Shown here: positions 21,301 through 63,474 of the stretch, piece by piece
How the letters are laid out: each line of letters opens with the position of its first letter
How positions within the stretch are numbered: position 1 is the stretch's first letter
NCBI RefSeq assembly: GCF_964355755.1
Contig: NC_092674.1
Coordinates: 5,833,001 to 5,897,000, forward strand
Reading direction: 5' to 3'
DNA length: 64,000 nt
Source of the DNA: Antedon mediterranea
Lineage: Eukaryota > Echinodermata > Crinoidea > Comatulida > Antedonidae
Position numbers and translations under genes: made by a program
Notes under the pieces: model-generated
The model's database searches: none
What the model saw: only the letters and a program-made list of their open reading frames with translations
Told to the model about the DNA's origin: nothing

Positions 21301-24300
21301 TCGTAAACAGGAATCTGGCAACTATCGTTCTCAAAAAGTTAAAGACAAAGAAATTTCACGCTAAGCTCCGCCCACTTTGTTAAAGCTCTTGAATAAATAA
21401 TGAGCACTGTCCTGTGGCTTCTCATCGTGTTTCGTAAAGCTATTGACCGGAACAACAACAAAATAAAGTAGTGAATTGGTGTTTTACTGTACAGTATATA
21501 CTTGCCTCCAACCTCAAGGTCCTGATTTCGCTCACGACTGCTTCTACTCCATTCCCCCAAGCCTCAAATAATTTACTATAGATTTGGATTTTTATAAAAA
21601 AAAATTATTGATCAAAATCGCCATAACTGGAAACATTACTTACAATTGGTTTCGTGGTCACAAGTTCTGTATGCCTAGCATTTGCTTGACCTATCTCTTG
21701 AACCGTTTGAGGTCGGGTCGATAGTGACTCTATAGCCTCTGTTACAAACTTGTCTATATCTGTCACATGGCTGTTGATAGATCGGCGAAGAGAGTTGAGG
21801 AGAGCATCAAAGAGCTGTTGAATATGGTCATCAATCACACCTCTTACCGGTGTTGTTGATACGGTGATACAGTCAACCTTAATTTGGCTATACAAAAGTA
21901 TTAGAAAATAAAAACTATTATTAAACTCTGTCGACACTAGCAAACTACTGTAGTTTGACAAAAGAAGTGTGATGTGCCCAAATATGGCAGTGATATGCCC
22001 AAATATGGCAGTGATATGCCGAAATATGGTAGTGATATGATAGTGAATGATTATCATGTCCCTATATGTGCATATCACATTGTTTTGTTACATAAACTTT
22101 TATAGTGTAGACAGAGCTTTACATAATGAAAATGTTGACTTTGAAGGCTAGCTATTACAACTATTCTTTCAAAGCCGTTGAATTTATAGAGGGCGCATAG
22201 AAAAGATAGGTTATGCGACATATTTTTACAAGCAAGTTATTTTGACTGAATGATCAGTGTGTGAGGTTATGGATCTAAAACACCTGAGATCAAAACCCAT
22301 CAAGATCACTGGACTTGGTCGTGGTTTAATTGACTAGGCAATATAACATGTCATATCACCCTTTTGGGTAATATAACATTTTCTATCTTCGTCACGGTAG
22401 CCATTTCGACTAACATTTTCAAATTCACATAGGCTCAGGGCTGCAAATTAAGGGGTATTTGGTCGCATTTGCGACCTAATTTTTCTGTTTGCGACTAAAG
22501 AAACAGAATAGGTCGCGCATAGCGCGACAAGATCGTCTGCTTGTGCGAGTTGTTTCAAATTGAAGTCGGGTGTGTTTTCCCTATTTCAAACACTGTGTAA
22601 TTTAATCTCTCTACTACGGAAGGCTCAGGAGTTTCCACTAGTCACCGCCGCCGCAAAGGTGTCAGGTTCATTCAAGCGTACAAAGCCCCTAAACATTTTA
22701 CACTCGTTGTGATTGGAAGTTCGTTGCATGCTGCCTTAACCAATCACACAAAAGGACACCAAACACACAGCACAGTGTGACGCGCGGACGACACAAACCT
22801 CGTGGAAAATCACCTCCGTTTTAAAGAAGGAATATAAAATCAATTGTACCGCCGTACACAGAAGTTAGCCAGGGCGGGCGCGGTAGATACAAAGGATTGT
22901 CGCCGCGCAGTCATCAGCATTTTTTAGGCAGTATAAATGGTTATATCATGATTAATAAATAATGTAATTAATGATATGTATAATAATATCTATTCATTAT
23001 ATAGATTAAACAGCAGTATTGTTTATCAGTAGATTTAATACTTTATTCCAGATTCTGATTATCGAAAATTATATATCAGAGAAAATACCGCAACTTTTCC
23101 TACAAAGTAGCTTCGTAGATAAAACAGGCTACGTTGTTGGCTTTGTAGGTTACATTGTTTGGCTTCGTTAGTAACCTCAATAAACAACCTCACGATGTTC
23201 TTAGTAAGTAACAAGGTGTGAACATTATTATTTAATGTGTTATTTTTGACTGGCGGAGAGGACCAATTTGTACATTACTAAGAAATATATAATATAATAG
23301 TTTTTATTTGTAAATATTTCATTCGTGTGTGTTTTTTTACTCTCAACGGCGAATATAAATTTCTCACAATGTAAACGTAGAGACACGATCCAACACAATG
23401 AACTATGCCAACTAATAAAAATAATATAGCGAACGTCCAGTCGATCCAGAAACATGCAAACAAAAAGATCGTAAACAATTCATTCTAAATATAGTATCAG
23501 AACGTTCAATCGGTCGCTCAAAAAGACTGCCGACAGAAGACCGTAATTAATACAGACCTAGTTTTTTGGTCACATGTCATGAAACGCGATACTCTGTTTT
23601 ACCACCGCAAACCTCTCGCATGTTTTTTTTTACTCGGTACGAGGGGGATGGCTACAAAACAGTGTACCTGAATTTTGCGTCACATGAAACGTAATACAGC
23701 TCTAAACTGTTCCCACGGTCCACACGTTTTTCCCCTCCAAATTCTGGTCGGGTCTTTTGTCGTAATAATAATTTACAAAGGCCTATGTTAAATCTTAACA
23801 TGGAATATATATTTATTTTGCATATATTTTGTTGGTGTCCTAGCCAAGGTGTTGTTGTTTTTATAATTCGCTAAACCAAGGTAGGATTGAATCATGTAGG
23901 CCGCCGAAACTCTCTCTGCTGAGGGCCCGATTTCGTCTCGTCGGCGGATGTCCTGCCAAATTAGGACAACCGATGTGTAGGGCGGCTACAAAAATTAACG
24001 TCTTAGACTAGGATTTTAATTAGCCAACAATATATGTTTGTTTCCATTGTTTATGCTCCTAACTAAAGGCGATGACATTGGTGTTTACAAACCGTACGAT
24101 CGACGCGTAGATATTATCATAAAATCGTAGGCATGGCAACGAACAATACTTTGGAAATTACAGGATATGTTTAGCCATGGAGGAAATTTTTTCCTCCATG
24201 GTTTAGCGAACAATAACCTACGATCTATTTACGCGTAGGCTACGAAAGGTTACGCGTATATACAAAGCAGTAATTTCTTTCTGTACCGTAACAATAATAG

Positions 24301-27300
24301 ATCTTGCGTGAATATAAGTGGCGCATCAGGACCAGTGCCTAAAAAATGTGCATAACCCAAATTAATTGAATTCTTCAGTGCTGAATTTTTATGTGCTCAG
24401 AAATCGATTGAAACAACCTATAATTACTCAAAAATCGCCCCCCCCCCAAAGCGGGGCCATTGGCGGCCCCCTGACCCCCAGCCTAAGGTTGTACTGTATT
24501 TCATTTTTATACACCCCCCCCCTCTAAACTAAAAACGGATCTGCGCGGATGGGGTTTGAGGGAAGGGGGTTAGTTTGTAGATGAAAAGGTGCTACTAAAA
24601 AAATTGGTGGTGCTACCAAAAATTATTATGAGCCATCATAAAAATGTGATAGTGCTACCAAGTAAAAAAGTTAATTTGCAGCCCTGAGGCTATGCAATAT
24701 AATATATACATACCTTGGCAGTTTTTCTGCATCTCTACCTTTGCCTTTAAGAGCTTTGAAGTTCCTCTCCCAGTCAGGTACTGTATGAAGCTGTTCTTCT
24801 ATCAGCTTATCAAGATCAACTGAGCCAAGGACAACCCATGGCTTATAATAAAAGAAGATTGAAAAGTAAGGTTAGTCTTAGTAGTTAATATAGAATAGAT
24901 TAATGAAGAAAACCAGAGAGAAAAATTTACCTTGAATCTATGTAATGCCTGTAAAAGTTTATGGAAAAGCTCCTCAGCTTTGCGGTAAAGAAGAGGGAAG
25001 CGGCTTGCATTCCTTTCTATCATCACAGGAAAGATAAGCGTCTGGCCTGGGTGGGGGTCACTTAACCCTTTGAAGTGATTTGGGATACTAATAAACTTCT
25101 TTATTTCACGGAAGTACTTTGCTCGAATTTCTTCTAGTGAGGGTCGGAATTGAAGCTTTTGCTGCCTAGGAATAACAAAAACAATATTTAAACGATACTG
25201 TACATTATAAATACATAAACAATTTATCTTACGCCTTATCAACAAATTTCAAGAATTACAGATATCCAAAAAAAATAAAATGTTAATGTTAAAAATGTTT
25301 AGGAGCTTTTTATTTGAAACAAAAAGTTTAAAATGTCCAGTTTACTGAAAACTCCGGTGTTCATATGCATTTGGGGAAAAATGACTACAAGACATTTGTT
25401 TCTAGCCATAAGAGTTTTGAGTAGAAACATACCTGTATACGATTTCCACTTTGATCTCTGGTAGGTTTTCATGTAGAGCTTCCAGGCCCATCTGATACTG
25501 GTGTTCCAAGGCCTTGTACAGTTGTCTATCCCAGTGTAGCTTCCATGTTTTCATGTCTTCTAGCTTATAGCCCTATACCATAAAAAAAAATATCAGTTAA
25601 TTACTAACACTGGTCTACCAACTATTAGGGATCACAACACCTAACTAGCTCTAATGTGTAATCGCTGAAACCACAAAAAAAGCATTAATACAGTGACCTT
25701 GTATACAAATTAAAAAAACACTACACTGTAGGACATAATTAACTGTTCACACAAAAAGTGTTTCGTAAACACTGATTTTCTATTTGCAGTGTCCACCGAA
25801 AAAGTAAAAGTTTGAGCTCTTTGGATTTTGTGAAACCAGTAGAATATGCTTATTGCCGAAGTAGCTCAGTACCTTGCTGTGTAGATCTGCCATTATGGTT
25901 CTGATATCATTCAGGCCTTCCTTCCAACGTGATGGCTGTCTCAGAAGATCTACGTTCATAAGATAGACTACCTGAAATTATAGATAACCAGATACATGTT
26001 GTTATTATTATCATCACTTTTTTTAGGACTTTCATTGAACCATGTCTTAAGAAACTCTCTATCAAGAGATGTCTAGTTCTCAAAATTGTTGTGTGAAAGA
26101 AGAGGATTTATAAAGCGCTTCTTCATTATAGATCAAAGTATTGTATGTACATAATCGTATTCTACATTAAACTCTGTCTACACTATCAAACTAGTTTGAC
26201 TAAAAAAATGTGATGTGCCCAAATTTGGAAGTGATACGTCCAAATATGGCAGTGATATGACATCATCATGTACATATACGGGCACATCAAATTTGTTTGT
26301 TACATAAAGTTTGCTAGTGTAGATAGAGCAATTTAATTTGTAATTTAACAATCTAATCAACCTTTTCTGAGATAGTATTGTGAATTTTACGTAGCCGCCT
26401 GTTCTCGGTGGTCAGGCGCTCAGCTGCAGCCTGCAACTTCTGGATATAGGCTTCCAGTTCTTCTGGATTATCCCAAGTAACTTGCAACTTGCCATCAGAT
26501 TCCTTCGCACCTTTCTTGGGATTCTTTATGATGTTTTGAAACGCTATGGCTGATGTCAACATCATTGGCCGTTGGCTTGGAATCATCTGTTCAGCTATGG
26601 TGTTATGGAAATGAGCCACCTTTAATATGCAAATTAACAAGAAAAAACATTCAATATTACAATATTAATGGTAAGTGGGTGCAACTGACAAGTAAAGACT
26701 GCTTACTATATGTAAGTCGAGTAAGCACCTCAAACAAGTCTAACAAGTTTGTTTATTATATATTTATACTGGCCAACCTCTTCAGTCAAAGACTGGTCTC
26801 CCCGAGGACCCAGTCTCGAAAGATGTACTAGGTTCTTTAAAGTGCACATGAGCTATATGTGTACACTGGACCTACGGTTTATAGTCCTTATCCGAGAAGA
26901 CTCGTTCTACCACCAGAACCATGGAGTGCAGTGAGCCTCGAACCCGATGTTATAGCTATGTAATTATGGTTCCACTGCAGCTCGGCCACACACTTAATCA
27001 CAAATGAAAAAAATTCTCGTTCACAACATTATCAGGACAAAGCCAATAGCAGTAAAATAACATGTAGCGGTAAAATATTTATAATACTTTTAATAAGTTT
27101 CTGATTAAATTTCTTGTGATTTAGCAATACACTTACCTGTTTCAGGATAACACCATGTCGGTAAAACTTCTGAGCAATATTTGCCGTGTGTTGGATCTTA
27201 GCTGGTATAGCAAAACCGAGACCTTGAAGCTGACGCACTTCACGTAGAAGAGTCACTAACTTGTCACCATAATTGACCACAAGTTTGTCATCTCGTGTGT

Positions 27301-28369
27301 CAAAGTCCATCAAACGTCCAGTTGTCTGTAAACTACAAAAAGAAGTCAAAATATCGAGAAAAATAAAGCTCCTGTTTTTTAAAATGAAATTAAGTATTGT
27401 CTTTAGCTTCTAGCATCGATACAAGTGCTAGTCAGTGGCTGTAATTATTTTGATTGGATGGTAGTTTAACTAACCTCATTGATAGTTTACTTTTATCAGT
27501 GTTGTATGCTAATCAGATGTCTTGAGGAAGTTATGATTTAATAACAAAAATAACTCTAAATGTATTAGGCATCATTTTCCATTACATTTGCTTATGATCA
27601 ATAAACAAATCTTACCCAAGTGGTTTCCTTGTATCTTCAATAGCAGCTTGTGTGTCTTGTGACCAAGTATCAAACTGATCTTGCCGCCAACTCTGCAACT
27701 CCTCCAATAGATCCAAAGAATCCTTTCTGAATCGACTGAATCCAGATAGATCATTTAGCAAAGCTTCTGCTGTGTGACTGGTTTCCTCGACCTGATAAAC
27801 AAGATATTTGATACAAGATAAAATACACTTAGTAACTGGATTTGTAAGATGTAAGCCTATTCTAAAGCTGTCTACACTATCAAACTAGATTGTTTCAAAT
27901 TAATTTCCTATCATCAGGATTGTGTATGTAAATACCCTTTATTATTTTCCTATATTTAGATGAAGTTTAAATGGACAGGGAAGTACTAGTAATAAAGAAT
28001 AAATTCAGCAGAAACTGTCAAACAAATAGAAACCTTAGCCTCCAGCTGTCTGACCCAGACAATGTTATTGGTGACCTCTGGTAAGTTCTTGCCCAACTTT
28101 GGCTTCCCTTCGTTTACTCTGGTGTTAAAATCCTCCTTGATGATTTTTATGTATTGTTGAAGCTGTTGCAGAAGTGTTTCCCTGAAGACCAAAAAGTATT
28201 AATTACTGAGTATAGTGCAGGGTATGGAATTTGGGAAAAATTAGCAGGTGCTTGCATTAAAAATCTTGAGTTCAGATTTAGCCTATGATCAAGCGGTTAA
28301 GACAGTGGAACCACCAATATCGACAAGGGTTCGAGTCTCACTCGCTCCATGGTTCTGGTGGTAGAACAA

Positions 28370-28403
<34 letters not shown>

Positions 28404-31400
28404 AGTGTACACAAAATGCTCATGTGCACTTTCATGTGTACATCTTTTGATGTGAGTAAGGGGTTACCTAATTGGTGTACTAGTTCACACAGCCACTGTC
28501 ACACATAGTCACTACTTAAACGTAGGCCTTCTAGTAAGCTTCCTAGTTCTGTTATAATCAATTTGTTGATTGTGGAACTAAATTAGGAGATGGGATTATA
28601 CTTGGTAATATAAATTGTATATAAAAACAATAATCATATAAAACAAAAATATAACATAATACATTGGCCATAACAGGGGTGCAGAATTCTACTTCTACAA
28701 GACCAAAATTAAAAAGGTTTAGTACAAAAACCTCTGCACTCGGGATGTGAAGGATAATAGATAAAACTGCCTACACTATCAAACTAGTTTGACAAAAAAG
28801 TGTGATGTGCCCAAATATTGTACATCATCATGTCTATATATGGGCACATAACATTTTTTTGTCTCATCAAATGTGATAGTGTAGACAGAGCTTTAAATGT
28901 ACCTCTCTGAAACTAGTTCTTTCTTGACGCTGTCTCTTTTGACAAGTTCCTTATAACGCTGGAATTCTCTAAGAAGCTGATGTGAATTTTTGCTCAGCTT
29001 TTGAAACTGGCCTCTCAACTTTCCTGCAATCCTCTGTTCCGCTGGTGCCATAGCTAGAAAATAAATTAAAGCATCATGTTACTTATGTTTTTATTTTTCT
29101 ACATATTTGGAAAGAAAAGTGGTTTTAAAATCTAGTTTTCCTTTCTCGTGTTTTGGGTGTATGGGTAATTTTTTTCTATAGTTAATGTCCCTGAAACATA
29201 GATAAACTATAACATCCATTACCGATAGAGAAAAGAAATAAAAGCAAGTGTAAAATTCAATATTCTGAGGCTGTTTATTTCGAAAGGGTTACCCTTCCTT
29301 CCAGCTGAACACACAGGGCACCTTATATCCAGGGGCACTGTTAAAATAGCAAAATATAAAAATGTAAACAAACAGAGATGCCTACCTCTTTCATATTGAG
29401 ACACGGCAGCTCTCCAAAGTGGTTGAGTATATGGGTTGTATTGTAGAGGGTTTAGGCCTGCAAACGGACTGAATGCATCACCAGTTCTCAGTTCTTGCTG
29501 CTCCCCAGCTGAAAGAAGCCTTACAAGTTGTTCATGGATACTTCGTAAGGTCATCACCTGAACAAAGAAACAACAAACATGGCATTTGAATAGTGGCTTC
29601 TCTGAAATCTTGTTGCCATTATCAAAATACATGTTTTTAATTTCTTTTAAAAAAATGTCATACACATCCAACAGTGAGTAACTCGCCAATTACAGGATGG
29701 ATAAACTATTTTATAATTCATTGTGCTTATAAACTAAAAGTCTTATTTGAGGCTTAGTGAGTGGAGTTGAAAGAGTCATGAGTTACAATCCTGGCACTAT
29801 GTTAGGATTGAACCCTGGACGTTGGGATTGGAAGGCAAACACATTAATCACCAAGCTACAGCCCCACTACAACCACCAAGCTACAGTTTCACTACTGTGG
29901 AACTTGCATACAAAAACACAGAGCAATATTAAGTAATAAATAATTTAAAGAGATCACTGGCCTAACCTCTTGGAGTCTCACTGACAGTTGTGACAACCCC
30001 TCTGGTGTGAATTTGTCATCCTTCCATGGGTTCATGGGCTCAGTCTTCCATAATTGACCAGTCAGCTTCTCACAAGACATAGTCCATTTATCGCAGATTG
30101 ATATCCCCCTCTGTAGAGCCTCACGGACACGGAAGAAAGGATCACGCCAGATGTCATAGTTGCTTAATTTGCGCTGTACAAATCTGCCGAGTTCTCCACC
30201 TAAAATTTGGTATGTAAAAACAATTGTGTTCGTTTGTGAGGGAGAAGCCCATATGCATATAAAATGAAATATTTCAGGCCGTTTCATATTCTTTTATGGG
30301 TTGTCTATTCTGGAATAATGGGATGTTAGTTCTATATGGTAGTAGGACCTTAAATATTTTATACAACACAATTTGTATTGTAAATTTGACAATTTATTCA
30401 CCTATAACATCTAACAAATGTTGCATTCTTCTTCCGGGGTAGGGGTCAAATTCCCCTTGCCTCCAAACCTCATCCACCGCATCGGTGGTTGTTTCAACTA
30501 TCTGCAGACCTTCGTCCAATGAGAATCCATCCAGATTACCATAATCCCTTGCGATTGGTTCAAACAGGGTTTGAAAATTCTGAGCACGTTCTTTTATGTC
30601 TAATGTGTTTCCTGACATGGCTACCTCAGCCCAATACTGGAACTCATCAGTAGGAGTCAGAATACCTATATTAGAAAATAATTGATTGATTGATTGATTG
30701 ATATTTCAAATTAATTACACAATAAATTTAACATTTTATGCTTTAGGTAAAATATTTGTTTACCTCAATGATTTTAACTTTTATTGTGGGCATGTGGTGC
30801 AGTGTGTATGACATTGGACTACTGATTGTGAGGTCAAATTCAAAGCATCGCATTGCTTGTATCCTTAGGCAAGACCCATTACTTAAGTTTATGCTTCTCC
30901 CCACCCAGGTGTACAAATGGGTACCTGGTAAGGTCAAGACACAACTCTGCGCTGATTACTACTGTAGCTGCATTATGGGAGTATGTTTCATACATGTTTG
31001 ATCTAAAATTTGGGTAATAATATGTACAGCACTTAGAGGTTCCACAACAGTAGGTGCTTTATAAATCCAGGATATTATTATTATTAATAGCAATGACTGG
31101 ATTTCAATACAAAATTGAAAATTAACTCATTATCAAAGTCAGAGAGAAATACTAAGCTCCATTCTAACATTAGTCCTTCATTGGGGCTTATGAAAGATAA
31201 AAAAATAATACAGAATCTTATGATACCTCCAAGGCTATCTTCTTTCGCAGGAGACCCTCGCTGAGTCGGGTCTTGTTTGCGGACAACACTGCTTAGCCCA
31301 GCTTCCAGTTGACTCAGCAAACTCTGTAGTTTGGGATCAAATCCTTGCGACCATTTCTCATCTTCAAGTAATAAAGGCGCGAACACCTAGAAAGCAAAAA

Positions 31401-32222: not shown

Positions 32223-32226
32223 TGTG

Positions 32227-32244
32227 TTATTCACCAAAATTCAT
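32227..32244 (-). promoter_or_regulatory. Five-codon uORF before DYNC2H1 start
   Basis: An ATG at 32244-32242 opens a frame of five codons ending in TAA at 32229-32227, 4 nt before the main ATG and in a different frame. If transcription starts upstream of it, it could lower initiation at the main start. A 'ttttag' just upstream (about 32,249-32,254) could be a splice acceptor, so the 5' UTR may be spliced. Confidence 0.45.
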
Positions 32245-32599
32245 CAATCTAAAATACATTTATCAGAAAAGGTATTGAGTTAATTTAAAAATAGGCTAGG
32301 GCCTAGGCCTAAGTCATGAATGAAGTAATTGTAATAGTAGGAGCCCCCTAGAATAGGGCTAGCCTAGGCCTGCATGCAACGACAACCTAGGAAGGTGTTT
32401 GTACGAGTCGCATACAGATACAGATAGTAGGTCTAGCCTAGGCCTAGATTATAATAATCAATAATCAATAATAATAATTTATTTCTGAAATAAAAACAAA
32501 ATACAGTTAACATTTTCTAAAATAATAAATAAAAAAAGAGAAAAAGGGTACCCCACTGGAAGCTAAACTTTAAAATGTGGGGTCCGGGCAACATATTTA

Positions 32600-32630
32600 A
32601 GTAAGGTAAGGTAAGGTAAGGTAAGGTAAG
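32600..32630 (+). repeat. GTAAG pentanucleotide microsatellite
   Basis: Five consecutive 'taagg' units, 380 bp upstream of the DYNC2H1 start codon. Confidence 0.9.
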
Positions 32631-33539
32631 AAACATGACATGATAATGAACAAAAAAGGCATTTATAAAAAAATGTGACATGTCTTTTTATTCAAGAATA
32701 TATTTATCGGATCTCCTCTCCATGACTAATCGGCGCCGACTAATCTAACTTCACTATGATCTTGCCTAGTTTAAATTATCATCATTACACTTCACTTTGT
32801 TTACTTTTTAGGCTAGGCCTAGGCCTTAGACAAGGCCAGACTGAGGTGGCAAGACTCGGCAGCGGGTCCTGTCCGCCGTCGTCAAGACTGAGGCGTCTGG
32901 TTTCCAAGAAGATGAATCATAATTTAATAACTCATAATTATAGACCCCGACAGAAACAAATACACCCAATTGAACATGAAGACACTTTTACAATATATTA
33001 TGTAAATATTTCAATAAAATAGTAGAATTCATACCTTAGATAATTAAATACAGCATAATATAAATTGTTTGTACCTAAATAACATCTGTCTGAAAAAATA
33101 AAATAGGAATGTGTGTCAAATATGATAAACATTCTATGAAACGAGTTATCTGATTGGTTAAAACTACTTAATCTAAAGCTTGGACGAATAAGATTTCGCG
33201 ATATATACATCGCGGAATGTAATAGCTTTGCGCAGCCGCAGAAGTCATGTTGATAGACTGAAGGGTCGGGGAAATGAATGAATGCGAAAGGCAGATTTCC
33301 CTAAAATAATCTAATGAAGAACGCAATTTAACCTCTTTTTACGGCAAAATATTCGTAAGTTTAATTCAATATTAATCAAAGTGTTATCTGACGTAATATA
33401 TTTGTTGTAAGTTGTAGTATGGATGAGTTATGGTTCGTTACAAGTAGAACATTTGTGCGTGTAGTGAAAAGCCGAGTGTTGGTTGTCGTTTATTAGAAAA
33501 GGACTCACCAGGGGAGAACCCAGCACCCAGTTGTACTGC

Positions 33540-33655
33540 AAGTGGTGCTGTCACGATAAATATGGTCCGGGGCCAAAATCGGTCCGGCCGGACCAGTTTT
33601 GGCTCTAAAATTGTGGCCAAAAGCAGTCCGCCACTGCCTAAATCGGTCCGGGCTT
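33540..33655. repeat. GGTCCGGCC-rich repeat, left block
   Basis: Repeated units of 'ggtccggccggaccagtttt' type. The same motif set returns in inverted sense at 37,205-37,410, on the other side of the hAT-like element. The pair may be the ends of an older element that the hAT element entered. Confidence 0.6.
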
Positions 33656-34019
33656 TTCTTCTGTCGATTTTAATTGAATTACTAGGCCTATGATGCTGTT
33701 TTAAGTTGTTTATGGCTAGAAAAATATCCCATGATATATATTAGTAAGTTATCTTGTCGGATAAATACTATAAATAAATGTATTTTATCTACAAACATGA
33801 CTTAGGTGTTCACTCATATTTCGGCCTGCCACACACTCACATGAACGGGTATGAGACGCTGATATTGCCAGCTAGATTTTATTTATGATTGAGGCCTTTT
33901 CCTTCCTCAGCCTAATCAATATTGGATAATTGTTTTATAATAATTGCAGGGGCGCAGCCAGTGGGGGGGTCACGGGGGTCCTGACCCCCCCTTTTTTTTT
34001 AGAAAAAATAAATAAAAAC

Positions 34020-34589: not shown

Positions 34590-34652
34590 TAACTAACGTA
34601 AAATGTATGATAATAATTTAGAAGTTAGTTATTACAATTATGTAGGCCTATA

Positions 34653-34689
34653 CTAGATGGTACGCTCGCTTCGCTCGCGTACCATCTAG
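34653..34689. repeat. 37-bp perfect-arm hairpin
   Basis: The arms CTAGATGGTACGC and GCGTACCATCTAG surround a short loop. The loop motif GCTCGCTTCGCTCGC recurs at about 36,809 in the same transposon. It is probably a subterminal or internal transposon structure. Confidence 0.7.
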
Positions 34690-38947: not shown

Positions 38948-38948
38948 G

Positions 38949-47851: not shown

Positions 47852-47857
47852 TTTTAT
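47852..47857 (-). terminator. Poly(A) signal of the 214-aa ORF
   Basis: TTTATT on the plus strand (AATAAA on the minus strand) about 115 nt beyond the stop of the 47969-48613 frame. Confidence 0.45.
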
Positions 47858-47968
47858 TTATACACTTTGAATATTTACATAATTACAATTATAAATTTAT
47901 CATTTTATACAAAGTACTTAAAAGTAGTTAAACTACATAATTTAAAGATAGATACTTCTTGTGAAATT

Positions 47969-48613: not shown

Positions 48614-48619
48614 ATTCGA

Positions 48620-51357: not shown

Positions 51358-52252
51358 TTGTAATTAATATAGAACAGTACGAGATATGAAATCAATATAA
51401 CTTCCCTGAAAGGTTTCCAATAGTTTTCTGAGCGTTTCTGTTATGATTCGTTTATATGGCGATTGCCTTCTGTATCGTAGTAACATCGAAGCGCGCACAA
51501 GGCGTTCATGCCAACAACGCGCAACCTATACGTGTGACGACGCCGCCCGCTACGTATAATCCATGATGGGCGTGGCCGGCGAAGGGGGGATATTTGAGTT
51601 GTACATCTATCGATTACACTATACCGTCATATATATCAATACAATTTCTAAATTTTATTCTACAAAATAACAAATTAATTTCATTTAGGAGATTTAGGGA
51701 TTTTGAATTGGATAAAAACAATTTTCATTCAACAAACAATATTACTATAAAATTATATTGATTGAAATAATAATTATAATGTATACTTCCAAATAATACA
51801 GAAACAAATTAAAAAACTTATAGGTAAAAAAAAAATTCATTATACTGTACTTTTTTTTATCTAACATCAATTTGGTTTTACCTTAAAAATAACACATAGT
51901 ACAATATACAGTTCAGTACTGTATAAAGAAACTATTCCAATGTTATATATCAATTTGATTTGACAAAAGTATGCAAAATCATTTTACAAATATTTAATAT
52001 AAATTAGCAAAGTATTGCTACAAGACTAAAATTTGTTAAAGCATTTTTTCTCAAATAATTACATTTTTAATAATAAAAACAAACGAAGTTTAATCCTAGC
52101 TTCACAAATAAATTTTAATTTAATTTATTAAAATATATCTAGTCTAAAATAATTCAGAAAAATTTCTGTTTCATAATATAAATCAAAATCATATTGTACA
52201 ACGTTTAATTTACATACACTAACCAAGGCTATAAAACAACACTTGCTCTAAC

Positions 52253-52274
52253 CATGGAGGATATTTCCTCCATG
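52253..52274. mobile_element. Tiny palindromic insertion, copy 2 (22 nt)
   Basis: CATGGAGGA..TCCTCCATG, flanked by CTCTAAC at 52246-52252 and 52275-52281. It lies in AT-rich intergenic DNA. Confidence 0.75.
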
Positions 52275-52724
52275 CTCTAACATAAATATTAAATAACTAA
52301 ACAAATTGTGTGTTTAAAAATAAATTATAAGACGCCATTAATGTTTTAGACAAAAACATGATAAATAAATTATAAAACAAGTATAAAATATAAAATGTTA
52401 ATAAAAAACTATAACTTTACAAATGTTGTGAAACTATATCGTGAAATCTAACAAATTATAAATAAGGACAAATTTATAAATCAAGGTAAGAAATGGAAAG
52501 TAATTATGGTAAATACTGTATAACTCTTTTTTAAAGTTTAGCCATACTACACTCTACAATGTATTTAAAATGGCAGTTTTCAATGTTTTATTTATTATAA
52601 ATTCTCAAAAACAGAACAATTTATTTAAAAAAATTAATTAATTACTTAATCAATTAATTACAATCACATATAATAGAACCCTTTATTAGGGACACTCCAA
52701 TTAATAACTATAAATAAATTAATG

Positions 52725-52805
52725 TAAATTAACATATTATGTAAATTAGCATACATTATGTAAATTAGCATATGTTATGTAAATTAGCATACATTATTTA
52801 AATTT
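52725..52805 (+). repeat. ~24-bp AT-rich tandem repeat
   Basis: 'atgtaaattagcatacatt' recurs three to four times. Confidence 0.8.
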
Positions 52806-53688
52806 GTTCAGTTTTGTATAAATTAAACTTATTAATAACAAATTAAGTGATTTAAAATATTTTAAAATTTCACAAAATATTTTATCAATTAATATTAAAC
52901 TTTATCCTTTCAGTATTTCAGAATTGGTTTAGGATTCAATTGAAATAATAATTGAAATTAACCACTGGAAAAACATTTCTTCAAGTTTACTGAGGTAAAT
53001 CATTCATCTACTGCAGTAACCCAGACATGAGGAATGCAATCTAATGAACACACACTCGAACCATTTTAAAGCATGTATTGTTCGTGGTTCTGATTGAAAT
53101 ATATTGCACTTGTAAGAAGTACCCAAGAAATTGCACTCTTTTTGTTTGTAGATTTGAAATAGTTAAGAATTCGGAGCAAGTATCAAGAAAAAAGCAAAGA
53201 AATGGATGGATTTTGACTGGTGAAAACAAAATTCTTCTAATATTGAATAAATTCATCTGGTTCCAAATAATATAAAGTAAAAATCCACAAAAAATTCTTC
53301 TAGTAAAAATATTTTCTAGGACTATTTTAGGAATGAATCACCTCTGCATTTCAAAATTTGGAACGATGAAAATAATACTTTTTAGAATTTGTTTACAGGA
53401 ATCCACATTAGGTATTATAATTCACCACCAGAAGGACCCCACTTGGTCTAAGGTGGGTTATCCTTGTATGCAAACACCAAAATAACAACAAGGCAACTCC
53501 ACCCTCACCCACCCTTTTCAAACATGGTCAGTTTGACCATGACTTGGTTTATTTTGTATTACGTATCACTGTACTTTATGTTAGGTCTAATAAATAAATG
53601 GAATAAAAACATAATCACTATTACCACCACCTTCACCACTAATGGTTACCAGAACCATCAGTGATACCATTCCCACAACCAATGGTAT

Positions 53689-56600
53689 CTAAACAGTGTG
53701 TTCTTTAACTACAATCTCATACGGCCTTGAATTTGGGCTCGGCATGTAAGACTCAACATTCACTACCGACAGTTTACTCTGAAATTCTTCCTCGTCCTCA
53801 CCAAGATTCGGAAGATGTGGCCAGCGCTCGACGAACGAAGAGCAACTAGAACTTGCAGTTGACATCCCTCTACCAGAAGTTTGTACGCATACAGAGGCCC
53901 CACTTGGACCGTGTGATGGAAGAACTGGGGGCACACCTTGCATTATCCTAGCCATGTCGCTGCCATCGTCTAGCGGACAGTCTGCAGGTTTATTGATAGA
54001 GTGAAGTACAAGACGCATTGATTTTCTGGATTTCAATGTTACTGGAAGACCTTCAGGTGAAGCTTGCGGCTCTATTTCTTCTAATTGTTGTTCTATTGTT
54101 GCATCTACAAATAAAATATATTATAATGATAGTTTAATTTCTTATAATTAAACCAACTGATTTGCGACGACCGACGACCAACCTACGTCACGTTAATTCA
54201 TTGTGCGCATGCAAAGATATTGGTACATGTTTGAAGGTTTCTAGATCCAGGCTGATGATCAACACCACATCAATTGACCTGACCTAGTTGGTCTTCGCAA
54301 ATCAAAAGCTCTTTATTAAAGAGGACACACGTACTCGTAGAAGTAAATTAAAAATAAAAAGTACTGTGGGATTATGTTGTTGCAAAGGATTATATTTTTT
54401 ATAAACTATAGAAATTTTAGACCTGGAGCCACACTTTAAGATAACATTAGTAGCACAGTAGTATTAAATTAAGATAATCAAAAGTAGTAACTGTCTAATA
54501 CCTTCCTCATCCTGGAAGAGTCTGTAGTCTGTGATTGGACATGTTCTCACAATAAGATAACGAGACACAAAGTAAACAACTGCCGTGGCCAAGCACAGAA
54601 TAGTGCAACACCGGAACAAAAAGCGCCCTCCATAATTGTAATAGATCACACCACCAATTATGGTGCCTACACCTCTCCCTGAAAACAAAAATAATGTTAG
54701 AAATTCAAGGACATTATGGATAAGTAGGGGCAGGTTGAAATTAAAGATATAACAAAAAACCTGAGAAACATCCCCTAATTTATTGGTAGCTCAGCTGTTT
54801 AATTATACATTATTATCTAGCAATTTAAGTAGTAATCCTCCTTTGGGTCAACCCTATTCTAGGGAAAATTTCCGACAAAAAAGGGGAAATGTAAGTTTTA
54901 TGGCCAACCCTACTCAGAAGATAATTTGTTCGGTCTTAAAGGTGTCCACATAATAGGAGTTCTATTGTATTCTGTATTGGGTTGAAAAAATATTTTTTTT
55001 TGGGGGGGGGGGGGCTTACCTATGCCCACATCAACGGTAGAAATAAAAGACTGAAGAGTGGCTGCCATACCAGGCGGCGATATTATACTAGCATACATCC
55101 TCATCGCAGCCCAAAATGCACCAAAAGTTACACCATGTAACGGTTCAACGATCAGCACCAAGTACGGGTTTCTTACCAACGAGTATCCAAGAAACCGAAG
55201 ACTGTAACACAACAACGTCAAATAAATCACATTTTGATGTCCTAAAAAGTCAATCAATCGACCAGAAAAGTATAAAAACGGGATTTCCGATAAACAAGTA
55301 GTGACCAGAGTGAGTCCCATTAACATATGGTCGCCATTCAAATCATTAATGTAAACAAATAAAAATGTTGATGTAATTCCGAAACACATTCCCATCACTA
55401 TGACTACAAGTAAAAATATTAGAATTTCTGCTTGACAAAGAACGTTGTATATATTTTTAAAACAGGAATTTGGTCTACGATGAGGAGGGAATGTCATCTT
55501 TATCGCTGCTAATACGCTTCCAAAAACTAAAACAAAAAACGAAAGATGTGCTGGCAAGTATTTGGCTTTGATTGAAGTGGCGTGGTTCTTATCGAGAATA
55601 AAACCCATTATGATTGCAAAAGAACCCCATCCTACTGCCCCCCATAGACGTTGCTTTCCATAGTCTCCCCGATCTTGTAAGAGTTCGACGACTGCCATGT
55701 CAACTAGCGGGAAATTATTGCACATAAAAACTTGCCCTGTCATTATCAAACAAAACATGATTACAAATGTCAAAGTTGAACTGCCAAGGGTCAAATTTGA
55801 TGTAGTATTCTGTTCATTGCAAATTGAATTTGTAAAAGTCTGATTCACTTTACAGCAGTAGTGTATGCATATGTCTGTAGTATTATTATTACACATTATC
55901 TTTTTGGTTAAACCGCTTGTATTAAAAACTGAAGAATATTGTCGAGTTGGAAGCAAGTCCTCAAGAAAATCACAGTTACAATTTGAACTTGTATTATTAA
56001 ACGTACTATTACGAATATTAGTATCATTAGAGTACGCTGCATTTGATTCCTCATTCAATAACTGCTTGAAAAATTCCTTATTGCAATCTTGAAATGATAG
56101 ATTCCCTGTGGCCGTCACATTTGCATATAAGACGGGTACAGGGGGAACAAATATTGTTAGGAAGTAGAAGATAGCCGAGCCTGACAGTGCAATTAATAAG
56201 ATGATCTTATGGCAGCTGTATTTGTCAGAAAGTAGGCCACATAACGGGCTGACGAGTAACTGTACTGCTGGTTCTAGGCCTCGGATTAAGCCGATTTGAG
56301 ATGTTGACAGGCCTAAAGCTATCATATACACAGGAAGATAAGGATTCAGGCAGGCCATACCTATATACAAAGAAAGATACATACATTACATACAAACAGA
56401 CAAAAATAACTTATAGATATTAGTGAAGATGTTTTTCCTAACCGTGCCTTTTTCCAACTTTCAATTAATGTAACTTTAGAAAATTAACTTTGTTTTAATT
56501 AATTGTTATTTGTATCCACATTGTGTATCAGAGGGAGCCTGATTTAATTTGTGAATTTTAAAATGTTTTTATTGAAATAACTGTAAGGGCAGGGGCATGC

Positions 56601-56727
56601 ATCTGATGTACCTTGTTTAACTATAAATTATGTTAATCTACACCAATTAACGAAATCATTTACCTGACAGATACAAGAAATACACGGCCTTTATGGGCAG
56701 AAATGTTCTATTAATTTCAACCTTCAT
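53689..56727 (-). CDS. MFSD6: MFSD6-like major facilitator superfamily protein
   Basis: Exons: 56664-56727 (ATG at 56727), 55020-56360, 54502-54678, 53689-54104 (stop). Together 1,998 nt, 665 aa, in frame. The start 'MKVEINRTFLPIKAVYFLYL' and 'PYLPVYMIALGLSTSQIGL' are typical of MFSD6-type transporters. 'GLLSDKY' is the MFS loop motif between TM2 and TM3. A large extracellular loop (about residues 105-220) is Asn-rich with roughly ten N-x-S/T sites and several cysteines, then the remaining helices follow. 'IIGGVIYYNYGGRFLF' is near the last pair. The cytoplasmic tail is about 140 aa, Ser-rich and acidic. The substrate is not established. It is shorter than human MFSD6 (about 790 aa), so the symbol is at family level. 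Divergent from EMC7, 1.1 kb apart. Confidence 0.88.
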
Positions 56728-57829
56728 CTTCTCACTGTGTATTACAAAAGAGGCAACCAATTGCCTTTAAAATTACAAATGTCAAACGACCATTGTTTTA
56801 GTAACTGTGTAATTAAAAGAAAAAACATGTTTATAAGTATAAACTATAATTATTAATAATATAATAATCATTATTACTGGAAAGTTTGCTTCCAAATTCC
56901 CATATACAGAGTATGAAAAAAATATATAAACATGAACATCACATCCTCATTCAATGACAGAAACTGGGGGGAAACGACCAACCTCATTAATGCAATTGTC
57001 AACTTCACATTCTCACACAGATGAGATGATACCTAGCAAAACCAGCCTAGGCTAGGCCTAGAGTAGGCCTAGTAGAGATAGAGATGATATGGGCTTGCTT
57101 GATAGACACATAAATTGGATAAACAACGCAGTCGGTTAACAACAAATTAGTAATAATTTACAGCTTATAATTATTCAACAGAAATTAATATTTTTTCCAA
57201 ACATACAGGAAATAAACAGGCAACATCTCTCTCGCCGACAAAATTGATGTCAATTTTTTTCTACACACATGAAATAAATAAAAGGGGGCGGGGCATGTTT
57301 ATAAATGTTTTATTTTATTCTAGGCTAGGCCAATACCATTATATTAAATGTAACAAATATGAAAACAAATAATTGAAAAATTATTGAAATACATTTATTT
57401 AAATTATATTCATAGTGTAACATATTATAAAGCCAAATAAAAGTATTTTTGATTGTAATACTATTTACAAGTATTTAATAAAATAAATAATTAATCCAAC
57501 TTAATATGAAGGCTGCCATTTTGAATGTTCAATTATATCACAGGTGAACCTAAACCAAAATATTAACTACCTAATATATAATTACAATATAGGTCATTTA
57601 AATACAAACAAAATATAAATAAATAAAATTGTGAAATGCTTTTAAAATAAATCAAATGTAAAAATATTGATATATATATTTTAGATAATTATTAATAAAT
57701 TCAATTACCTAATATAAAAATGAACTATTCGATATTTTTTAACTGGAGCGATGCAAGCGATGGTATCGCGAGAAAATTAGAAAATTGAATAGCCTAGGCC
57801 TACAATTATAAGTAAGATATAGTGTAAAA
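56728..57829. promoter_or_regulatory. Divergent intergenic region MFSD6-like / EMC7
   Basis: 1.1 kb between two head-to-head genes; both promoters must lie here or in unseen 5' exons. It contains 'aggctaggcctagag' near 57,050 and no recognisable TATA-type core. Confidence 0.5.
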
Positions 57830-60021
57830 ATGAAGGAAATCAAGATAATAGTTTTAGTTATTTGTTTAGGAGTATTTCAGGTAAAATGTGAAGATACTGA
57901 TGAAGATAATAATAGTAACACATACTATACAATAGAGGGTAAAGTAATTATATCTGGAGCTAAATTGTTGGAGTGGCTACCCGAAACAAGAATTCTAGTG
58001 GACGGAGGCGCTTACGTAGGCTTTATGAGGTAACTGCATCCTTCTAGTCTGAGGCCTAGGCCTGGAGCAACATTCATGCTTAGCTATACCTGGCTGTGTT
58101 GCTACTGTGTTACTATGATCATGATTTTAATAATAACTAGGCCTATGCCTTCAAACTATTTACAGTATTTGTATTATTGTTATTTTAATATTTGTATTGT
58201 TGATATGGAATGTATGTTTTCGAAATAAATTGAATTATTATTTAACAAAATGTTTAATTTTTTTTTATTATTAGGGCTGACGGAAGTTTTACAGTGGGTG
58301 GTGTCCCATCCGGATCTTATGTCGTTGAAGTTAGTAATCCAAAGTTCTTATTTGAACCAGCCCGTGTTGAAATCAACGGTAAAGGAAAAATGCGAGCTCG
58401 AAAAGTAAATCTTATTCAACCAAATAAAATAAATTTATTGTCATATCCTCTACGAATGAAATCTAAAACACCTAAAGAATATTTCCAAAAACGAGAAGAG
58501 TTCAGAGTTACAGATGCCTTAAAAAATCCAATGGTAAGTGAGAATTGTATGTAACGTGTAATACAGTAGTAAGTCACATTTAATACCCCAACAAGATATT
58601 AATCAAAGAAGATCTGGTATATAGACTATTTTGACCCATATAACTATTTAGGACAAAGAAATTCAATGGTTTCAACTTATAATTTATATTATTAAATGTT
58701 AAATAAATCTTAGTTTGTTCTATCATAAAGTTAATATTTGTTACTTTTTTCTCTCATACACAGGTACTGATGATGGTGGTGCCCTTAATATGTATTGTTG
58801 TTTTACCAAAACTAATTAATTCTCAAGATCCTGAAGTTCAAAGGGTAAGATATTCAAATGAGGTGTATTATCTAAATCATATGTACCATACCAGCAAAGA
58901 TAAACGATGCATGCCTTTTAATCAGTTATTATGGCCGAGCGGTTAAGTCATATGGCCGAGCGGTTAAGGCAGGGGCGCCGTTTACCGTACCTAAAGAGCC
59001 AACAACAACATCGGCAAGGGTTCGAGGCCGACTCGCTCCTAGTTCTGGTGGTGGAACAAGTCTTCTCGGATAAGGACTATAAACCGTAGGTCCAGTGTAC
59101 ACAGTTATAACCTGTGTGTACTTTAAAGAAACCCAGTTCATTATTCGAAAAAGAGTAGGGGGTTACCCCGGTGAACTGGTTCACACAATAGCCCCTGTAT
59201 CAGGGGGATTACCACCTATCTGATAGGACAGTGATTAATTCACTATTGGTAATCCTTGGCCACATTGCCTAAAGACATAAAATAAAATAAATAAAAAATT
59301 ATCAGTTTCTCTTGTCCAATATTAAAGATGTATTGTCCCCCAAAAACATGAACAATGTAGATTAATGTAAACAAGACTTTGAATAGGCCACAGTTTTAAT
59401 GAAGTTAATCATGTAGATTAAAAAAATGTTTCCACTTATAAAATGACAAATTCTTTAAAAATCAACTAAAACCCCATTGACTTCAAGGCAATCTGACTAA
59501 TTTCTGCTTTAAATTACAGTTTTTTTAGCTAAATCAATCCAATATTTGGCCAAAGTAAATAACTATTATGTGACATTAAAATAGCATATTTAACAAAACA
59601 TTTTGAACAAAATTATTTTTTAGGGGGTGGGGGAGAGGGGGGCAATGTATCTTTAAAAGATAATTCTTAATTGGGTTGCTTATTTGTTTATTAGTTTTCC
59701 ACAAATGATACATATAATTTTCTTAATACATCACTAAATATTTATAAATGTGGATGGTGGTCACAAAAAATCTAGAAGTAGACTTTAACAAAATAAAAAT
59801 ATTACTTGTTTGTGAACTACCTTTGCTAGAAATGAATAAGCAAATCATTATTTTTAGTTATAAATTATATTATTTATTTTTCTCTGTAGGAAATGCAACA
59901 ATCAATGAGTTTTATGAACCAAAATCAAAATTTACCCGACTTATCTGAAATGATGACGAATTGGCTAGGAGGAACACAACCAACAAAGAAAAGAGACAAA
60001 AGTAAAGTGAAGAAGAAATGA
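57830..60021 (+). CDS. EMC7: ER membrane protein complex subunit 7
   Basis: Subunit of the EMC insertase, which helps tail-anchored and multi-pass proteins into the ER membrane. Exons: 57830-58029, 58275-58533, 58764-58844, 59890-60021; 672 nt, 223 aa (human 242). Residues 1-20 form a signal peptide ('IIVLVICLGVFQVKC'). The lumenal beta-sandwich carries 'YTIEGKVII', 'RADGSFTVGGVPSGSYVVEV' and 'YPLRMKSKTPKEYF'. One membrane segment 'VLMMVVPLICIVVLPKLI' is followed by a short basic tail ending in KKK. All family landmarks are present. Intron 3 holds a tRNA-derived SINE. AATAAA at about 60162. Confidence 0.96.
58931..59297 (+). repeat. tRNA-derived SINE family D copy with doubled A box
   Basis: 'tggccgagcggttaag' occurs twice, 22 bp apart, at the head. 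B box 'gggttcgaggccgactc'. Tail 'aaataaaataaataaa'. It lies in EMC7 intron 3. Confidence 0.88.
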
Positions 60022-60161
60022 ACAATGAACTTATTGTTTTAATTTGATTGATAATTATATTTTTATTTCTTGATGGCGCCCATCATTTGTGACGTTTGGG
60101 GGAGTTGGAATCAAACGTGTTTTGGTGTTTTTTAATTTGATGTGCTCTAATTAATAATAAT

Positions 60162-60167
60162 AATAAA
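60162..60167 (+). terminator. Poly(A) signal of EMC7
   Basis: AATAAA about 140 nt after the EMC7 stop. Confidence 0.65.
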
Positions 60168-60184
60168 GTTAATATTTTTGCTTA

Positions 60185-60343
60185 AGCTCTGTCTACACTA
60201 TCAAACTAGTTTGACAAAAAAAGTGTGCCCAAATATTGTAGTGATATGCCCAAATATGGTAGTGATGTGACATCATCAAGTCCATATATGGGCACATTAC
60301 ATTTTGTTGTCACATAAAGTTTGATAATGTAGACTTACAGCTT
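60185..60343 (+). mobile_element. MITE family A copy
   Basis: 'agctctgtctacactatcaa' to 'gtttgataatgtagacttac'. It lies just downstream of the EMC7 poly(A) signal. Confidence 0.9.
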
Positions 60344-60344
60344 T

Positions 60345-62394
60345 ACATTTTAAGTCCGGTATAAGTCAATAAACTAAGAGAAGAGGCAACCCATACAAGT
60401 TTTACATTTACTATAACTTCACTGGGCCAGTGCAAGGGTGGTGTGATTTTGGGCGATTTGACCATACATATTATATGATAACGATAATAACAGTCAACCC
60501 TCTCAAATGCTAGTTAATCATTATGTGTAATAAATATACTCTCAACTCTCTCACCACTGGCCTAATATGTCAGGTTTCCAGAAATTCTGAATGTTACAAA
60601 AGATATTCTTTCTAAATAAAAGGTTTTCCTGTTTTTTGAGAGTCCATTATTGGGAGTGAGAGTCAATTGTGCTCAATTTGAACTAATACATTCTATTAAG
60701 CTCTGTCCACACTATCAAATTATGTGACAAATAAATGTGATGTGCCCATATATGGACATGATGATGTCATATCACTACCATATTTGGGCACATCACGCAT
60801 TTTTTTGTCAAACTAGTTTGATAGTGTAGACAGAGTTACTGTACATTAAAAGGATAACATAACATAATTTTGCGAACATATCAATTCGGAAAGAGGATAA
60901 AATTTATATTTTCAATTTTATAGGATTTTGAATATACAATCTCTTGACATGTAAGCCTTGAGAGACTGTATATTTAATTAGATAGGTAATAATTTTATAC
61001 ATTTGTTTATTAAATATATTATGTCTGTCTGTCATTATGTAGTACTGTCAAGTTTGATGACATGTTTTTATTTTAGGTTTTAATAGAAGTACAGTATGAT
61101 AAAATTGATTATGTAATGTAAATATGTAGGTGAATAAAATTACATATAAATCAGTGGCATGGTTTTTTATAGTTTCGAAACAAATTACATAATTTAACCT
61201 TTAAATCTAAAAACACAGCTGCTTTACAGTGCACACCAGTCAAAATACTGTATTGTATATATCTACCTAGCTTTTGAGACTTAAAGCATTAATGCTTCTG
61301 TGCCCCTCTTGACCAGAACATATTATTTGATTTATATGGGCTGTATTGTGTATTTCAACAGGTGGTTAGACCAGTGCTTTTTTAGTGTGGTTTTAAATAT
61401 GTTTAGATTTTGAGAATCAATTCAATCACTTTTTCGCCAAACAGTTTCAACAATTTATAGATCTTATAGAGAACATATTATTCTCTCTAGATTTTTATTT
61501 CACTTTTGGTTTCTGTATTGGGTTATAATGGCTAATCAATTCCATTTTGTTCAGTTCAATAATAAACAAAAACTCAATTGTTTTTGTATTGCATGTCTGC
61601 CTTACAATTAACAAGGCCAACAGCCATAAGTCGCATGCTCTCAGAAAAAAATGAACTTTCAAAAAGTAATGTACATCAAAACAGTTCAAAAAGTACAGAA
61701 AAGCGATAAAACGCATAGTGATACCGGACCGACAGACAGACCGACCGACCGACATAGTGAACTATTGAGTCGCGTTCACGCGACTAAAAATTGATTGAAT
61801 TATGGATATTTGAACGGTCATTTCCGTGTGCAGTAATTCTACGGACCAATAGCTGACGAACGGCGACATTGTCTCACATGACTTTTCCTTCTTTTCAACA
61901 ATTTTGTTGATACATTTTCGGCTTTTGTTTATTCTGTATAAAACTGATTCAAGACAGCGGTAGGTTTTGGTTGGTAAGCAATCACCTAGTTAATTTATAA
62001 AATACAAATTCATCTTTAATTCAACTTATAAAATATGAGTTAGCTAGCCTTAATATTAATTAGGAAGGAGGCCTACCTAGTTAGGCTCAGACCGGTTTAT
62101 TTACTATTATAGCATGCAAGTAGGGCTACCCTCTCCAAACGACACAGGCCTACCTCTTATAGCTAGGCCTAGGTTTAAGATGACACCGGGTTAGGATTTC
62201 CCTGACCACAGGATACATTTAGCAGCAGCATAACGTTAATACAATTATTAATTAATACATATGACTTTTATAGATTAGAATACACTTTTTAAAAATATTT
62301 TGCAAATAAGTTATATTTTTTTTAATGATATTTTCTGAATCTTTAATTATAATAGGAATGCAAATTTCTTTGAGGTTTTTCAACTTACACTAAA
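60345..62394. other. Intergenic, EMC7 to Rab9
   Basis: It holds one more family A MITE and a GACC/GACA run near 61,725-61,755. A possible Rab9 5' UTR exon ends near 61,960. Otherwise nothing recognisable. Confidence 0.5.
60699..60835 (-). mobile_element. MITE family A copy (uninterrupted reference)
   Basis: 'agctctgtccacactatcaa' to 'agtttgatagtgtagacaga'. It provides the empty site for the hairpin inserted in the copy at 63,295. Confidence 0.9.
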
Positions 62395-63021
62395 ATGCCA
62401 CCACACAAAAGTATACCAGTGTTAAAGGTTGTTCTACTTGGTGATGGGGGTGTCGGCAAAAGTTCCCTGATGAATAGGTTCATTAGCGACAAATTTGATA
62501 ACCTTTCATTTCACACAATTGGCGTGGAATTCTTAAATAAAGACATTGACGTAGACGGCGAAAGCTACACAATGCAGATATGGGACACTGCCGGACAGGA
62601 AAGATTCAAAAGCCTTCGCACGCCGTTTTACCGCGGCTCCGATTGCTGTTTATTAACTTTTAGCGTAGACGATTTAAACAGTTTTAAGAACCTTGCAATG
62701 TGGAAGAAAGAATTTTTATTTTATGCTGACGTACAGAACCCAGATACATTCCCATTTGTAGTATTAGGGAATAAAGTCGATGTCAGTGAGGATGACCGAA
62801 AGGTTTTTGAACCGATGGTTAAAACATGGTGCGAAGAGAATAACAATACGCCGTATTACGAAACAAGTGCAAAGACTGCGGTAAATGTAAAAGAAGCGTT
62901 TACTGCGTCGGTTCAACGTATCTTAGATCTAGACCATAAATTTGGAATTGCGGAAGGAAATGAACATGCGATTAATTTGAAGAACAAACCAAGCAATAAG
63001 CAATCATCATCATGTTGTTAA
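62395..63021 (+). CDS. RAB9A: Small GTPase Rab9
   Basis: Rab GTPase of late endosomes, known for retrieval of mannose-6-phosphate receptors to the trans-Golgi. It is a 208-aa single-exon coding sequence, like the human RAB9A CDS. Motifs: GDGGVGKSS (P-loop), 'FHTIGVEFLNKD' (switch I, Rab9-type), 'WDTAGQERFKSLRTPFYRGSD' start of switch II, 'GNKVD', 'ETSAK', and a C-terminal SSCC for double geranylgeranylation. Invertebrates usually have one Rab9, so the A/B distinction does not apply. A possible 5' UTR intron runs from a donor 'gcg/gtaggt' near 61,960 to an acceptor 'aatag' near 62,355. Confidence 0.96.
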   Translation: MPPHKSIPVLKVVLLGDGGVGKSSLMNRFISDKFDNLSFHTIGVEFLNKDIDVDGESYTMQIWDTAGQERFKSLRTPFYRGSDCCLLTFSVDDLNSFKNLAMWKKEFLFYADVQNPDTFPFVVLGNKVDVSEDDRKVFEPMVKTWCEENNNTPYYETSAKTAVNVKEAFTASVQRILDLDHKFGIAEGNEHAINLKNKPSNKQSSSCC

Positions 63022-63294
63022 GTGTGGCCACAACCTAGCAATTTTATGTACTGTATCCAATGCTTTGCAATTTTAAGAATGTCACTATTAAAATTACTAA
63101 AAATTATTATTATACACATACCTACTCATCATGGTGTAAAATTGGATTAATTTTAATCATACTGTAATTTGGATATACAATGGCACTGTATATTTTTTTC
63201 ATTGTTAAAGTAAGCCAATACTGTCTATGGGGCAGGAATATATCATGATTGATACATTTTTTTTAGTGGGAATGAATTCAACGACAAACCCTTA

Positions 63295-63474
63295 AGCTCT
63301 GTCTACACTATCGAAATTTAACAGACAAAAAAAATGTGATATAGACATGATAATGCTATATCACTACCATATTTGGGCACATCACACTTTTTTAGTCAAA
63401 CTAGTTTGATCATGGAGGTATAAAAATAGATATATATTTTTATACCTCCATGGTTTGATAGTGTAGACAGAGTT
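63295..63474 (-). mobile_element. MITE family A copy carrying a hairpin insertion
   Basis: 'agctctgtctacactatcga' to 'gtttgatagtgtagacagag', flanked by TTAA on the left and TTTAAA on the right. The 42-nt palindrome at 63411-63452 interrupts the right inverted repeat. Confidence 0.9.
63411..63452. mobile_element. Tiny palindromic insertion, copy 3 (42 nt)
   Basis: The arms CATGGAGGTATAAAAATA and TATTTTTATACCTCCATG surround a 6-nt centre, flanked by GTTTGAT at 63404-63410 and 63453-63459. It interrupts a MITE copy. The intact sister MITE at 60699-60835 has a single GTTTGAT at 60816-60822. Confidence 0.8.

Follow-up and report, generated by a model that had tools for sequence, protein, structure and literature searches.

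In a 64,000-nucleotide stretch of the genome of the crinoid Antedon mediterranea (contig NC_092674.1, positions 5,833,001 to 5,897,000; G000:C5:5833001-5897000), which we call the window, three short palindromes begin with CATGGAGG and end with CCTCCATG; they lie at 24176-24200 (25 nt), 52253-52274 (22 nt) and 63411-63452 (42 nt). We conclude, with a probability of roughly 0.93, that these palindromes are excision footprints of P-superfamily DNA transposons and not mobile hairpins. What we observed directly was a donor element with transposase domains, target duplications around the footprints, an edge in how much of the terminal inverted repeat (TIR) is retained, a series of footprints at one site together with empty copies of that site, and comparable features of a second P family. 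A first-pass annotation of this DNA had reported the three palindromes between exact 7-bp repeats (GTTTAGC, CTCTAAC and GTTTGAT), all of which were present as described, and had proposed a genome-wide search for their shared ends. The pattern CATGGAGG-N(0-30)-CCTCCATG matched three times in the window, as against none in 100 dinucleotide shuffles, and at 1,058 places in the whole genome (354 Mb, 18 contigs), whereas the reversed pattern matched at one. The palindrome is, then, a genome-wide feature rather than a local oddity.

The donor was found by scanning 10-kb stretches around part of the transposase matches in the genome (12 matches to PF21788 and 35 to PF21787). This element, whose ends we call A-type, is 6,324 bp long (L079 1157-7480; C11:13871856-13878179), carries a perfect 32-bp TIR (CATGGAGGTATAAAAATAGAAGGAGAGAGCTC) and has the target-site duplication (TSD) GATACCG at both sides. 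Its minus-strand open reading frames (ORFs), which are probably exons of one gene, matched TNP-like RNaseH_N (PF21787, 4.9e-24), RNaseH_C (PF21789, 1.3e-5) and, in two pieces, GBD (PF21788, 1.3e-3, which is below the curated cut-off, and 8.2e-6). The 590-aa ORF, at whose start lies a zf-AD-like finger scoring below the curated cut-off, matched the Drosophila P transposase 6p5a at 6.3e-5 and was 31% identical over 509 aligned positions to the second P family described below. Judged by its sequence, the donor carries the marks of the P superfamily, namely an RNase H-like core with a GTP-binding insertion, a TIR of about 31 bp and a TSD of 7-8 bp. The first-pass annotation had called a P-type link speculative and had suggested looking for a longer element with the same ends and a transposase; such an element exists, complete with a 7-bp duplication, and it bears out the link. 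The same element also contains a plus-strand ORF with a PHD finger (L079:1392-1751; PF00628, 1.6e-6). A second ORF convergent with the transposase is present once in each P family, at L079:2156-3202 (+) and L025:5365-6336 (-); the two are weakly similar (23% over 186 positions, E 1e-4), and neither matched a Pfam family at E 0.01.

Few A-type elements with two ends remain. By pairing matches to the 5' 200 bp (17) by eye with matches to the 3' 200 bp (20), we counted nine, one full-length and eight of 878-936 bp; the search scores only the best candidates, so that divergent copies may escape this count, and the remaining matches were single ends. By eye, the short elements had an exact 7-bp duplication in five cases, agreement at 6/7 positions in one and at 5/7 in one, and the last (L105) had no duplication and a damaged right end. 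These 0.88-kb copies fit a miniature inverted-repeat transposable element (MITE), or a short non-autonomous element, better than the palindromes do: a MITE transposes itself and has internal sequence beyond its TIR tails, and the palindromes consist of TIR tails and at most a few bases. A 111-bp remnant (L107; C2:20015398-20017397) lies between two copies of GTCAAAT, matches one element end over about 105 nt and closes with CCTCCATG; it looks like the product of an interrupted gap repair. A B-type element of 10,849 bp was found on C4, with a 32-bp TIR (CATGGAGGAAAAAATAAAAGGAGATCTCTCAA) and a target duplication agreeing at 6/7 positions. Other candidates were rejected. A possible 1,051-bp B element (L095) proved to have a separate footprint within its right half, and the transposase loci L025-L029, L070-L074 and L075-L078 held no element with two CATGGAGG ends, although L029 and L074 contain footprints and L027 and L075 a single CATGGAGG end.

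Target duplications were then read at 55 footprints outside the window, 35 taken from the 50 census places listed and 20 from a listing of footprints with 17-nt arms. The longest exact repeat adjoining both sides was 7 bp in 39 of them, 8 bp in one and 6 bp in one. In the first 35 footprints, 26 exact 7-bp matches were observed, compared with a mean of 0.84 and a maximum of 6 when flanks were mispaired (2,000 shuffles). The first-pass annotation had held that these features derive from transposition and that the 7-bp repeats are target-site duplications, and had named a majority of hits lacking them as the outcome that would speak against it; the majority of the sites read have them, and its view stands. 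The target is near-palindromic, approximately GTYWRAC: in raw counts from 29 exact sites, three of them in the window, G occupied position 1 in 17, T position 2 in 24, A position 6 in 25 and C position 7 in 14. One footprint (L089) has flanks that form an inverted instead of a direct repeat (tttagttatat / atataactaaa), which makes a longer palindrome overall. Eight copies beginning with CATGGAGGTATAAAAATATGTTTGAATC were set aside; they have common flanks and no 7-bp repeat in the 300 bases read, and look like one footprint end within a host repeat.

The retained part of the TIR has an edge. Genome-wide, the first 17 nt of the TIR occur in 299 ends (151 + 148) and the first 21 nt in only 14 (8 + 6). 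Of these 14, six come from elements or from remnants of greater length (the C11 element with its two ends, C1:26623535, C8:19603283, C10:10870563 and the C2:20015498 remnant), and three are footprints (C3:20640216, C4:10011281 and C4:29251189). A search for the outer 17 nt with the opposite end no more than 30 nt away gave 185 strand-matches (95 + 90). Among the 100 of these that were listed, in which symmetric places appear on both strands, the match to the TIR ended at 17 nt in 8 rows, 18 in 78, 19 in 1, 20 in 10 and 21 in 3, and none went beyond 21 nt, though the TIR is 32 bp long. The 47 distinct sequences in these rows gave a similar distribution (17 nt in 8, 18 in 29, 19 in 1, 20 in 6 and 21 in 3). 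The exact 17|17 product made up 24 of the 100 rows. Base 18 was A in 92 rows, but position 18 is partly uninformative because in a 17|17 product the partner supplies a matching A. These numbers fit cleavage at 17 or 18 nt, some tails being longer or copied. The palindromes have the make-up of a footprint, two target duplications enclosing inverted TIR tails that are no longer than about 17 nt, though the match extends to 20-21 nt in 13 of the 100 rows.

The junctions between the tails were examined in the A-type footprints, which accounted for 41 of the 50 places listed of the 1,058. No filler was present in 26 of the 41, and 15 had 2-15 added or unmatched bases. An overlap of at least 2 nt was found at 13 of the 26 filler-free junctions, compared with 24.5% in simulated joins of 8-17 nt tails (binomial P = 0.004, a rough value because copies common by descent are included). 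This points to annealing of the tails through short self-complementary blocks, for example TATA.

One host repeat showed a series of states at a single target. Of 231 candidate copies we read the site in all of the best 40 that were scored, which are 97-100% identical. Three of the 40 (L066, L068 and L115) are empty: GGTCAAAC is present once and nothing is inserted. The single-copy empty allele that the first-pass annotation had asked for in related species was thus seen inside this genome, as a single unduplicated target. All three empty copies lack two nearby bases that other copies read carry, which points to an earlier-branching lineage of the repeat and not to precise excision. The other 37 copies comprised 26 distinct sequences, in which GTCAAAC occurs two to five times with differing palindromes, or parts of them, in between. 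Some of these 26 states differ by single bases only; some are clearly common by descent, as with the first 34-nt footprint, and others differ at the last footprint only. Such a series is what would be expected if elements inserted into one target more than once and were excised imprecisely, although the three identical CATGGAGCTGGTCAAAC units in L053 may reflect tandem duplication rather than new insertions. In another copy (L129), a palindrome with CAGGGAG...CTCCCTG ends lies between two GGTCAAAC copies at the same target, possibly a further set of P-type ends.

We propose the following mechanism. A P-superfamily transposon would insert, duplicating 7 bp of its target, and would later be cut out by a staggered cleavage, in which the transposase breaks one strand where the element ends and the opposite strand some 17 nt into the 32-bp TIR. 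On both sides of the gap a single-stranded stretch of TIR some 17 nt long would remain as a tail, and the two tails would be inverted copies of one sequence. Fill-in and joining of the tails would yield the full 34-nt palindrome, whereas trimming and annealing at short self-complementary blocks would yield shorter palindromes and a few added bases longer ones. We infer the staggered cut both from the retention described above and from the Drosophila P transposase, which, according to passages of PMC7776569, cuts 17 bp within 31-bp inverted repeats and leaves 17-nt 3' extensions. The gap was presumably closed by an end-joining pathway, and excision presumably took place in the germ line.

A second P family gave a partial replication of these results, with weaker support than the A type. 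It is represented by a 5.55-kb element with CTGAGACAAC ends, present in three copies about 99% identical and, by eye, with 7-bp duplications. Short palindromes with CTGAGACA ends occurred 82 times genome-wide, compared with none for the reversed control; many of the 82 are repeated copies of a single sequence, which lowers the number of independent events. In the 22 distinct sequences listed, the longest retained prefix was 17 nt. The 5.55-kb elements had also been considered as donors of the window hairpins and were rejected, as they have other ends (CTGAGACA).

Several observations weigh against the excision explanation or narrow it. No exact direct repeat of 6-8 bp was found at 14 of the 55 footprints sampled, four of which (L007, L093, L141 and L143) agree at 6/7 positions. 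By their common flanks the 55 footprints fall into only 49 contexts, so part of the 1,058 has been multiplied by host repeats; some are copies spread with those repeats, and independent excisions are fewer than 1,058. A strict 17-nt cut would yield fewer than the 13 rows that match the TIR for 20-21 nt, and these data do not separate a cut at 18 nt from variable cutting or from copied filler. As to the elements, a THAP domain is usual in P transposases, and none was present in the donor ORFs scanned, though a small THAP exon could escape such a scan; in the B-type element, the four ORFs scanned of the eight listed had no Pfam match. The second footprint in the window has ends for which we found no donor, as detailed below. 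In the second family, the seven flanks read had an exact 7-bp repeat in three, an exact 8-bp repeat in one (L112, by eye) and neither in three.

We weighed three other explanations for the palindromes. The first-pass annotation had raised the possibility of a miniature mobile hairpin, that is, a palindrome of 18-50 bp that is itself inserted by a transposase acting in trans. The common ends, the 7-bp duplications and the high number of copies would all be expected of such a unit, and a target that holds several palindromes might have received hairpins more than once. However, in the 100 listed rows the arms reach only 17-21 nt into a TIR of 32 bp, a limit that a mobile unit free to shorten would have no reason to keep; the centres vary between copies and lean to overlap joining; a full element with the same ends and a transposase is present; and mobility of the Drosophila P element needs at least 138 bp and 216 bp of its two ends, as quoted in a passage of PMC1562414. 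Excision of an element followed by end-joining explains the fused termini without a jumping unit of 22-42 bp or its mobilization in trans, and we regard the mobile hairpin as highly unlikely. The first-pass annotation had also considered transposon termini fused by internal deletion. Its fused termini hold, and the 111-bp remnant with one long end is what either an interrupted repair or a deletion predicts. But ordinary deletion within resident elements, fusing the TIRs at random points, would place endpoints along the whole element, and in none of the 100 footprint rows listed does the end lie beyond 21 nt of the TIR, the 14 ends of 21 nt or more being all that the genome holds. Excision of the whole element and end-joining of its two TIR tails takes the place of internal deletion, which we consider the least likely of the three.

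The remaining explanation is somatic or programmed elimination, in which the germ line would keep the elements and the sequenced tissue would have lost them by excision, and it would account for footprints being far more numerous than the elements found in the assembly. Against it, identical footprints are common to copies of host repeats (L040-L042, for example, share the 38-nt form, and several of the states at GGTCAAAC are shared), and some footprints carry apparent later point mutations. Those footprints must have been inherited, and elimination as the source of the palindromes is very unlikely.

Returning to the window in the light of the excision explanation, the first footprint (24176-24200, 25 nt) fits the B-type TIR, with 11 nt from the left and 15 nt from the right end and a 1-nt overlap, and lies between plus-strand GTTTAGC duplications at 24169-24175 and 24201-24207. 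The second (52253-52274, 22 nt), flanked by CTCTAAC at 52246-52252 and 52275-52281 (+), is C-type by eye, with 8 nt on the left and 14 nt on the right (CATGGAGGAAATAT). The third (63411-63452, 42 nt) is A-type, with 17 nt on either side of the 8-nt centre AGATATAT and GTTTGAT duplications at 63404-63410 and 63453-63459 (+); its left arm agrees with the donor TIR over 20 nt. The C-type end CATGGAGGAAATAT occurred at 102 ends genome-wide, compared with 2 for the control, and among the 100 of these ends that were listed we saw by eye, short palindromes aside, no plus-strand end followed by a minus-strand end within 15 kb, which leaves footprint 2 without a C-type donor. A further short palindrome with CATGG ends, CATGGTCAGTTTGACCATG, lies at 53523-53541; three such patterns occur in the window, as against about 1.3 by chance, and two of them are footprints. 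By eye, the window ORFs at 14922-15851, 17778-18671, 54910-56382 and 62395-63021 resemble genes for two receptors of the rhodopsin type, a transporter with several membrane passes and a GTPase of the Rab type.

Hopping of the P elements may have been almost purely conservative, the donor site being end-joined and the element not copied back, which would leave some ten copies and hundreds of scars; along with this, elements may have re-used their own targets, including the type with CAGGGAG ends, with up to four footprints per site. We put this forward only tentatively and at less than even odds, and have lowered our estimate because some stacks, such as that in L053, could be tandem duplication. 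If it is true, the scars keep a heritable tally of hops. Counts of transposon jumps usually rest on surviving copies, and labelled scars let jumps without a surviving copy be counted as well. Within one assembly, such jumps can be given dates relative to host repeats, and the different element types can be compared. Possibly hundreds of independent junctions would provide a natural test of how long-tailed breaks are repaired in the germ line, and also of why some transposons fail to multiply. These data also caution against taking every very short palindrome with target duplications for a mobile unit.

Among known systems, the closest is the P element of Drosophila melanogaster, which likewise has an RNase H-like transposase with a GTP-binding insertion and a TIR of 31 bp (32 bp here), and whose cut 17 nt inside the TIR, as given in passages of PMC7776569, is close to the 17-18 nt retained here. 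It differs in its 8-bp TSD (7 bp here) and in the THAP domain, which was absent from the ORFs scanned here; in Antedon, moreover, palindromes outnumber two-ended A-type elements by about 100:1 before correction for host-repeat copies. Galileo, a Drosophila member of the P superfamily, has duplications of 7 and occasionally 8 bp and a palindromic target, GTANTAC, to be compared with about GTYWRAC here (passages of PMC4168063), but it has long TIRs (passages of PMC4168063 and PMC3573991) in place of the 32-bp TIRs found here; the Galileo passages in PMC4168063 mention no footprint series. The P elements and P-MITEs of Anopheles gambiae resemble our elements in their TIRs of 27-31 bp and in having short non-autonomous relatives with P ends only, comparable to the 0.88-kb copies, and differ in their 8-bp duplications (passages of PMC1562414); in the main text of that study the word 'footprint' does not occur. 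A genome-wide survey of the excision sites of rice DNA transposons (PMC4423477) is similar in that it followed excision repair with filler DNA, but it dealt with DNA transposons other than these P families and compared two species, whereas in Antedon the TIR tails label the scars so that one genome suffices. In the literature, searched by titles and the openings of abstracts in mostly open-access papers, we found no genome-wide census of P footprints. P excision footprints that retain TIR tails are known in Drosophila. Footprints as such are thus familiar, and what stands out in Antedon is their scale, the ratio of palindromes to elements and their stacking at single sites.

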